From Thermococcus sp. (GTDB lineage Archaea; Methanobacteriota_B; Thermococci; Thermococcales; Thermococcaceae), in assembly GCF_027052235.1 (NCBI RefSeq), contig NZ_JALUFF010000049.1:1-36582 (forward strand): 36,582 nucleotides of DNA, read 5' to 3'. Shown here in pieces: positions 19,058 through 22,005 of the stretch. The number at the start of each line of letters is the position of its first letter. The first letter of the stretch is position 1. A program made the position numbers and the translations under genes. The notes below the pieces were generated by a model, which was not told where the DNA came from, did not search any database, and was given only the letters and a program-made list of their open reading frames with translations.

Positions 19058-20870
<1,813 letters not shown>

Positions 20871-20889: not shown

Positions 20890-20950
20890 AAAGAATCAGC
20901 CAGGAATCCGGTCATCATCCTCCCGTCAGGTTCGAGAGTGCTCATCACGC
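20890..20950 (-). ncRNA. C/D box guide sRNA (2'-O-methylation)
   Basis: All four boxes are present in order on the minus strand. They are box C GTGATGA (20948-20942), D' CTGA (20929-20926), C' ATGATGA (20918-20912) and D CTGA (20899-20896). The guides are 12 nt each: GCACTCTCGAAC before D' and CCGGATTCCTGG before D. The D'-C' spacer is 7 nt. These are the dimensions of archaeal C/D sRNAs. Such RNAs bind L7Ae, Nop5 and fibrillarin and direct methylation opposite the fifth base before D or D'. Predicted targets contain CCAGGAAUCCGG and GUUCGAGAGUGC; I could not identify them. Ends are approximate. Confidence 0.88.
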
Positions 20951-20967
20951 AACCGGACGTAGTCCCT

Positions 20968-20985
20968 CAAGGCTTAAAAGCCTTG
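20968..20985. promoter_or_regulatory. Palindromic, probably bidirectional TATA element
   Basis: An inverted repeat with 8-bp arms, CAAGGCTT-AA-AAGCCTTG, has TTAAAA/TTTTAA at its centre. On the minus strand the centre lies 28 bp before box C of the sRNA. On the plus strand it lies 25 bp before ATG 21002 of the GNAT gene. Both spacings suit archaeal TATA-directed initiation, so one element may serve both. Confidence 0.6.
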
Positions 20986-21001: not shown

Positions 21002-21499
21002 ATGAGCTCTTCCATGAGGAAGGAGATTAGAATACCACTGGCGATGGTTATAATCAGGCCCGCAAAGCTCTTTGACATAAGTGAGGTCATGAGGATAGAG
21101 CGCGAGTCCTTCAGGGAGGCTTACCCAAGGGGGATTTTCCTCGTCTTCCTTGAGAACAATCCCGATACTTTTCTGGTTGCGGAATACAACGGAAAGGTTA
21201 TCGGCTACGTAATGGCCTACCTGAGGCCGGACCTTGAGGGGCACATAATGAGCATAGCCGTTGATCCAGCGTACAGGGGAAACGGCATAGGCTCGGCCCT
21301 CCTGACGGAGGCCATAGAGAGGCTCATAAAGAGGGGCGCCCGCTACATCGGCCTCGAAGTGAGGGTCAGCAACGAGAAGGCGATAAGGCTCTACGAGCGC
21401 TTCGGCTTCAAGAAGGTGAAGAGGATCGTAGGCTACTACGCCGACGGTGAAGATGCATACTATATGATTTTACCGGCTGAGGAGTGGAGGGGGAGCTGA
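21002..21499 (+). CDS. rimI: GNAT N-acetyltransferase, archaeal RimI/Ard1 type
   Basis: This 165-residue protein has the acetyl-CoA-binding motif AVDPAYRGNGIGSALL (about 81-97) and the later YERFGFKKVKRIVGYYADGEDAY, as in N-terminal protein acetyltransferases. It probably acetylates protein N-termini in the cytoplasm. The core starts at VIIRPAKLFDI; the start at 21002 is used because GGAGG lies upstream, but ATG 21014 or 21044 are possible. The stop overlaps the endA start by one base. Confidence 0.87.
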   Translation: MSSSMRKEIRIPLAMVIIRPAKLFDISEVMRIERESFREAYPRGIFLVFLENNPDTFLVAEYNGKVIGYVMAYLRPDLEGHIMSIAVDPAYRGNGIGSALLTEAIERLIKRGARYIGLEVRVSNEKAIRLYERFGFKKVKRIVGYYADGEDAYYMILPAEEWRGS

Positions 21500-22005
21500 T
21501 GATAGTCTTTTACCTCAGCGGGAACAGGGTTTTCTCAACCGATAAGAACGCGATAGACGGCCTTTACAACAACCGCCACTACGGCAAGCTCGTCAACGGG
21601 AAGGTGTTCCTCTCTCTAATTGAGGCGGCCTATCTGGTGGAGAGGGGAAAGATAGAGGTCAGGGACGGCAGGAGAAGGCTAACCCTTGAGGAGATTATGA
21701 AGCTCGGAAGGAAGGAAGACGAGCTGTTCGATGCCAAGTACCTCGTCTACAAGGATTTGAGGGATAGGGGCTACACCGTAAAGTCGGGTTTAAAGTTCGG
21801 CTCCCACTTCAGGGTTTACAGGAGAGGAATGGATGAACATTCGCAGTGGCTCGTCTGGGTTGTCCCCGAGCATAAAACGCTTACGCCCCACGACGTGACG
21901 GCTCGCGTGAGAGTAGCCCACGGCGTCAGAAAGGAGATGATAATGGCCGTTGTTGACGACGACGGTGATGTTACATACTATAAGGTCGAGTGGGTGAAGT
22001 TTTGA
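21499..22005 (+). CDS. endA: tRNA-splicing endonuclease EndA
   Basis: This 168-residue homodimeric endonuclease cuts bulge-helix-bulge introns in pre-tRNA and also processes rRNA precursors. The catalytic triad is visible as Y107 (in HFRVYRRG), H114 (in DEHSQW) and K145 (in HGVRKEM). Its ATG overlaps the GNAT stop (CTGATGA), with GGAGGGGGAG just upstream as ribosome binding site. Length is typical of the alpha-2 type enzyme. Confidence 0.94.
   Translation: MIVFYLSGNRVFSTDKNAIDGLYNNRHYGKLVNGKVFLSLIEAAYLVERGKIEVRDGRRRLTLEEIMKLGRKEDELFDAKYLVYKDLRDRGYTVKSGLKFGSHFRVYRRGMDEHSQWLVWVVPEHKTLTPHDVTARVRVAHGVRKEMIMAVVDDDGDVTYYKVEWVKF

Follow-up and report, generated by a model that had tools for sequence, protein, structure and literature searches.

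In a Thermococcus genome, the gene for the C/D box sRNA sR5 and the rimI-endA operon lie head to head around one TATA element. We consider it probable that sR5 is transcribed leftward and rimI-endA rightward from this single symmetric BRE-TATA-BRE promoter, and that sR5 guides two methylations of 23S rRNA. The locus lies in a 36.6-kb stretch of DNA (36,582 nucleotides, hereafter the window), which we analysed together with the corresponding loci of related genomes. The sR5 family and two-way archaeal promoters are each known already; what is new is their pairing at this locus and the evolutionary record that accompanies it, and a limited literature search found no paper describing an sR5-rimI pair. 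This pairing would take bidirectional archaeal promoters beyond antisense noise, to a case in which both genes are functional. Promoter merging in a compact intergenic region, and not regulation, is the most likely origin of the arrangement.

The sR5 gene and its neighbors

The features of the locus are listed below; the alignment referred to comprises 13 sR5 sequences from four genera.

20895-20951, minus strand: C/D box sRNA gene sR5 (RF01304); Rfam cmscan 51.8 bits against a gathering cut-off (GA) of 40, E = 3.3e-9
20942-20948, minus strand: C box GTGATGA, read directly; core TGATGA invariant in the alignment
20930-20941, minus strand: D' guide GCACTCTCGAAC, read directly; 10 contiguous pairs with 23S rRNA, guide/23S covariation between genera
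20926-20929, minus strand: D' box CTGA, read directly; invariant in the alignment
20912-20918, minus strand: C' box ATGATGA, read directly; TGATGA invariant in the alignment
20900-20911, minus strand: D guide CCGGATTCCTGG, read directly; 11 contiguous pairs with 23S rRNA
20896-20899, minus strand: D box CTGA, read directly; invariant in the alignment
20968-20985, no strand: very likely bidirectional promoter, BRE-TATA-BRE, CAAGGC-TTAAAA-GCCTTG; from spacing and comparative BRE evidence
20974-20979, no strand: TATA core TTAAAA (TTTTAA on the minus strand); from a TATA core scan
21002-21499, plus strand: rimI, N-terminal acetyltransferase (GNAT); TIGR01575, 123.8 bits against a cut-off of 86.4
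21484-22005, plus strand: endA, tRNA-intron lyase; TIGR00324, 135.3 bits against a cut-off of 59.6
19058-20827, minus strand: herA; NF040819, 985.8 bits against a cut-off of 970

A sequence-only reading of the window had proposed a C/D box sRNA with the full set of four boxes and a pair of 12-nt guides, and the positions it gave proved exact. Because the locus scores above the gathering cut-off for sR5, orthologues above the cut-off occur in 60 of 94 Thermococcaceae genomes, and the box pattern including the D guide recurs in 35 of the 61 genomes of the genus (a reversed-pattern control gave no matches), the sRNA belongs to this known family. The window's own genome holds a single sR5 match. 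That relatives would keep the box positions, as the reading had anticipated, was borne out by the alignment, in which the core boxes are invariant, as is segment CGGATTCCTG of the D guide. The locus thus shares with RF01304 its boxes, its guide positions and its D guide sequence. Two features differ within the family: the D' guide varies between genera in step with 23S rRNA, and most Pyrococcus have other genomic neighbors. Folding of the sR5 RNA alone gave z ~0, which is uninformative, as expected, because C/D sRNAs fold with protein. Judged by family score and conservation, 20895-20951(-) holds a genuine, conserved sR5 gene, with a predicted sRNA 5' end at ~20949-20952.

The GNAT gene that the earlier reading had placed divergent from the sRNA is indeed so oriented, and is identified here as rimI. 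The start of endA overlaps the end of rimI, and by position the two form one operon. The sRNA had also been described as lying upstream of herA, which is correct as to position, herA being downstream on the same strand. It is an incidental neighbor: it has its own TATA, TTTAAA at ~20862-20868, and in many relatives it is not adjacent, the usual neighbor of sR5 being the divergent rimI.

The shared TATA element

The palindrome CAAGGCTT-AA-AAGCCTTG is found exactly at 20968-20985. Exact inverted repeats with 8-bp arms and a spacer of 0-4 nt number four in the 36.6-kb window, with a null mean of 3.7, and since only ~0.012 are expected per 120-bp region, it is unlikely that one fell in the gap between the sRNA and rimI by chance. 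Its center is a TTAAAA core that stands 25 nt from the C box of the sRNA and 22 nt from the rimI ATG, with a CAAGGC BRE on each side, and no second TATA-like core was present between the two genes among the cores scanned. The suggestion that one TATA element lies at the right distance for both the sRNA and the divergent GNAT gene therefore holds. The palindrome as such fared differently: this genome alone has perfect arms, and relatives conserve instead the TATA core flanked on both sides by an A-rich BRE. We interpret 20968-20985 as, very likely, a bidirectional promoter with BRE-TATA-BRE architecture.

The spacing is well conserved. The gap between core and ATG is 22-24 nt in 40 of 40 sR5-rimI loci, and the gap between core and C box spans 25-39 nt in Thermococcus. 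In T. kodakarensis the median distance from TATA to transcription start is 23 bp, and ~14% of mRNAs are leaderless (PMC4247193). Given this median, the spacings predict that the sRNA starts 1-4 nt before its C box, so that no 5' processing would be needed, and that the rimI mRNA is leaderless, starting at or near its ATG; like the leaderless mRNAs of T. kodakarensis, it would have a 5' UTR of ~0-2 nt.

We propose that TBP would bind the near-symmetric TATA core and that TFB, by binding the BRE on either side, would set the direction of transcription. Two start sites ~50 bp apart would follow, at ~20951 for the sRNA and ~21002 for the rimI mRNA. There is close precedent in P. furiosus, whose BRE-TATA-BRE promoters were shown, both in vitro and in RNA-seq data, to fire in two directions from start sites separated by 49 bp (PMC6640164). 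The resemblance extends from the symmetric TATA with a BRE on both sides to the spacing, ~50 bp predicted here against 49 bp measured at PF1918. The P. furiosus products were, however, interpreted as non-functional antisense RNA (PMC6640164), whereas the present locus has conserved genes on both sides, the sRNA and rimI-endA.

A different symmetric element occurs in relatives. In the interval from the shared TATA to the C box, and just upstream of the latter, most sR5-bearing Thermococcus carry GGGGTGGCCACCCC, a palindrome perfect over 14 bp, or a shortened version of it (L054, L060, L064 and others); it is absent from the window. Of 61 genomes, 15 have the exact 14-mer, once each and in every case at the sR5 locus, and by spacing it would lie at the very start of the sRNA transcript.

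Comparative record of the promoter and competing readings

Among loci sharing one TATA, a second, sRNA-facing BRE accompanies sR5. By a criterion chosen post hoc, after the sequences had been seen, AA at -5/-4 on the sRNA side is present in 30 of 31 Thermococcus shared-TATA loci with sR5 and in 3 of 14 Thermococcus loci without it; in the single sR5-bearing exception, G030, the AA is displaced by one base. At eight loci belonging to two outgroup genera (g5 and g6) the sRNA and rimI each have their own TATA, and there the sRNA-facing AA is found at the rimI TATA in none (0/8). On the rimI-endA tree, the presence of sR5 changes at least five times within Thermococcus. The BRE state in the three well-supported independent contrasts went in the predicted direction or tied, never the opposite way, with p = 0.25 at best; the comparison falls short of significance because only three such contrasts exist. 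The second BRE is thus associated with dependence of the sRNA on the shared TATA, under a post hoc criterion and with non-significant contrasts.

This association bears on an unlikely alternative, in which the sRNA is real and the TATA serves mainly rimI, sR5 being processed from a longer transcript or driven by an unseen element and the palindrome having arisen by chance. Some T. kodakarensis snoRNAs are embedded in 5' UTRs or ORFs and have to be released by processing (PMC4247193), and the variable gap between core and C box, set beside the fixed gap between core and ATG, favors such a reading. Yet the extra 8-12 nt of the wide-gap species are mostly the leader palindrome, which would begin at about the predicted start, and the second BRE tracks the presence of sR5. 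The scan for other cores between sRNA and rimI, and the low chance of such a palindrome in the gap, likewise speak against processing, and we favor transcription of both genes from the shared promoter.

sR5 was not found in G014, G015, G016, G023, G027, G034, G035, G040, G042, G045, G055, G056, G060 or G067, and this methylation guide appears to have been lost repeatedly in Thermococcus while rimI-endA stays. In four further genomes (G017, G026, G038 and G039) a gene of ~1.4-1.5 kb or more splits sR5 from rimI, and a TTAAAAG-type promoter is kept on both sides of the intervening gene. At L061, L065, L068 and L025 the gene lying between sR5 and rimI, ~1.4-1.5 kb long, encodes a secreted-looking protein.

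Pyrococcus offers a parallel with another sRNA family. We take genome G004 to be P. abyssi and G024 to be T. kodakarensis. The latter assignment agrees with the position of sR23 (RF01138), matched at 1371731-1371782 in G024 and published at 1371729-1371790 for T. kodakarensis (PMC9014305). In P. abyssi (L166 / L175) the same rimI operon faces a C/D sRNA, in this case sR23, across a single TTTAAA, which implies that promoter merging at rimI happened more than once. Three other Pyrococcus with sR23 beside rimI (G005, G006 and G008) differ in having two TATAs.

These observations weigh on the idea that the two genes are paired for a reason. It is distinctly unlikely, in our estimation, that selection for coupling rRNA modification with protein acetylation and tRNA splicing has led rimI-endA to fuse its promoter repeatedly with that of a divergent C/D sRNA (sR5 in Thermococcus and sR23 in P. 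abyssi), one TATA then forcing a choice between the guide and RimI/EndA. Quite improbable is the related proposal that the shared TATA was selected for coupling as such, through competition or co-regulation between a 23S methylation guide and RimI/EndA output. Both would be in keeping with the single TATA of P. abyssi, and the second with retention of the divergent pair across much of Thermococcus. Against coupling stand the at least five changes in sR5 presence while rimI stays, the four split pairs, and the two TATAs at the three other Pyrococcus sR23-rimI loci. The functional link between RNA modification and processing genes that the sequence-only reading had drawn is unsupported by the data analysed here; sR5 has apparently been lost in several lineages that retain rimI-endA.

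Highly improbable, finally, is the view of the palindrome as an operator at which a repressor or activator controls both genes. The dyad is perfect, with 8-bp arms centered on the TATA core, but a comparison of 54 rimI promoters turned up the exact form in no genome except this one. The core and the A-rich BRE positions persist in relatives, with symmetry of 3-7 out of 9 in the other shared-TATA loci, and the second arm decays where sR5 has been lost. Together the loci make up a clean natural series (two TATAs, one shared TATA, the sRNA lost, and the pair split by a gene) in which to study how the BRE sets the direction of archaeal promoters, and this series comes with two easily measured RNAs.

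Predicted guide targets in 23S rRNA

With L7Ae, Nop5 and fibrillarin, sR5 is predicted to guide 2'-O-methylation at two 23S guanosines. We scanned the rRNA of six relatives for the targets, as no 16S/23S match was found in the window's own assembly. The D' guide GCACTCTCGAAC forms 10 contiguous pairs with UAUCGAGGGUGC in 23S, and the D guide CCGGATTCCTGG forms 11 with UCAGGAAUCCGC. Taking the fifth base from the D' or D box as the methyl site, the guides thus paired to the relatives' 23S predict modification of G2370 and G2403, respectively (G017 numbering), 33 nt apart. G2370 aligns to E. coli position 2276, and G2403 to 2309, where E. coli has A.

Both duplexes are imperfect. The exact 12-nt targets that had been proposed, CCAGGAAUCCGG and GUUCGAGAGUGC, were absent from the relatives' 16S and 23S scanned, where the best paired sites have 10-11 contiguous pairs; exact complements are unnecessary, and two 23S guanosines are predicted as targets across imperfect duplexes. 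Nor did the suggested tRNA targets materialize: TTCGAGAGTGC was found at three further positions in the window's own genome, none of them inside a tRNA called by ARAGORN.

Neither guide match beats shuffled guides when taken alone, so that only joint and covariation tests count. In the joint test, shuffled guide pairs landed no more than 60 nt apart on the same rRNA in 36 of 4000 trials (0.9%). As to covariation, the D' target varies at two 23S positions between genera (UAUCGAGGGUGC, UAUCGGGGGCGC and UAUCGAGGGCGC, with UAUCGGGGGUGC in two genomes), and the D' guide mostly changes along with it at these positions. Swapping guides between genera introduced an extra mismatch in three of the five swaps tested. 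If these pairings are used, Thermococcus would carry two 23S methylations, Gm2370 and Gm2403, that several of its species should lack. Genomes without sR5 keep the same 23S target sequence wherever a match to it was obtained.

The sRNA gene lies 9-28 kb from its predicted 23S target gene in all g1 and g4 genomes compared; this is not so in G087 or in G004. At the edge of the contig (204-306(-) and 1-67(-) of the window), the H/ACA sRNA Pab19 is located just upstream of the 16S rRNA 5' end, and a snoRNA has been reported in a like position, just upstream of the 16S 5' end, in the rRNA leader of T. kodakarensis (PMC4247193).
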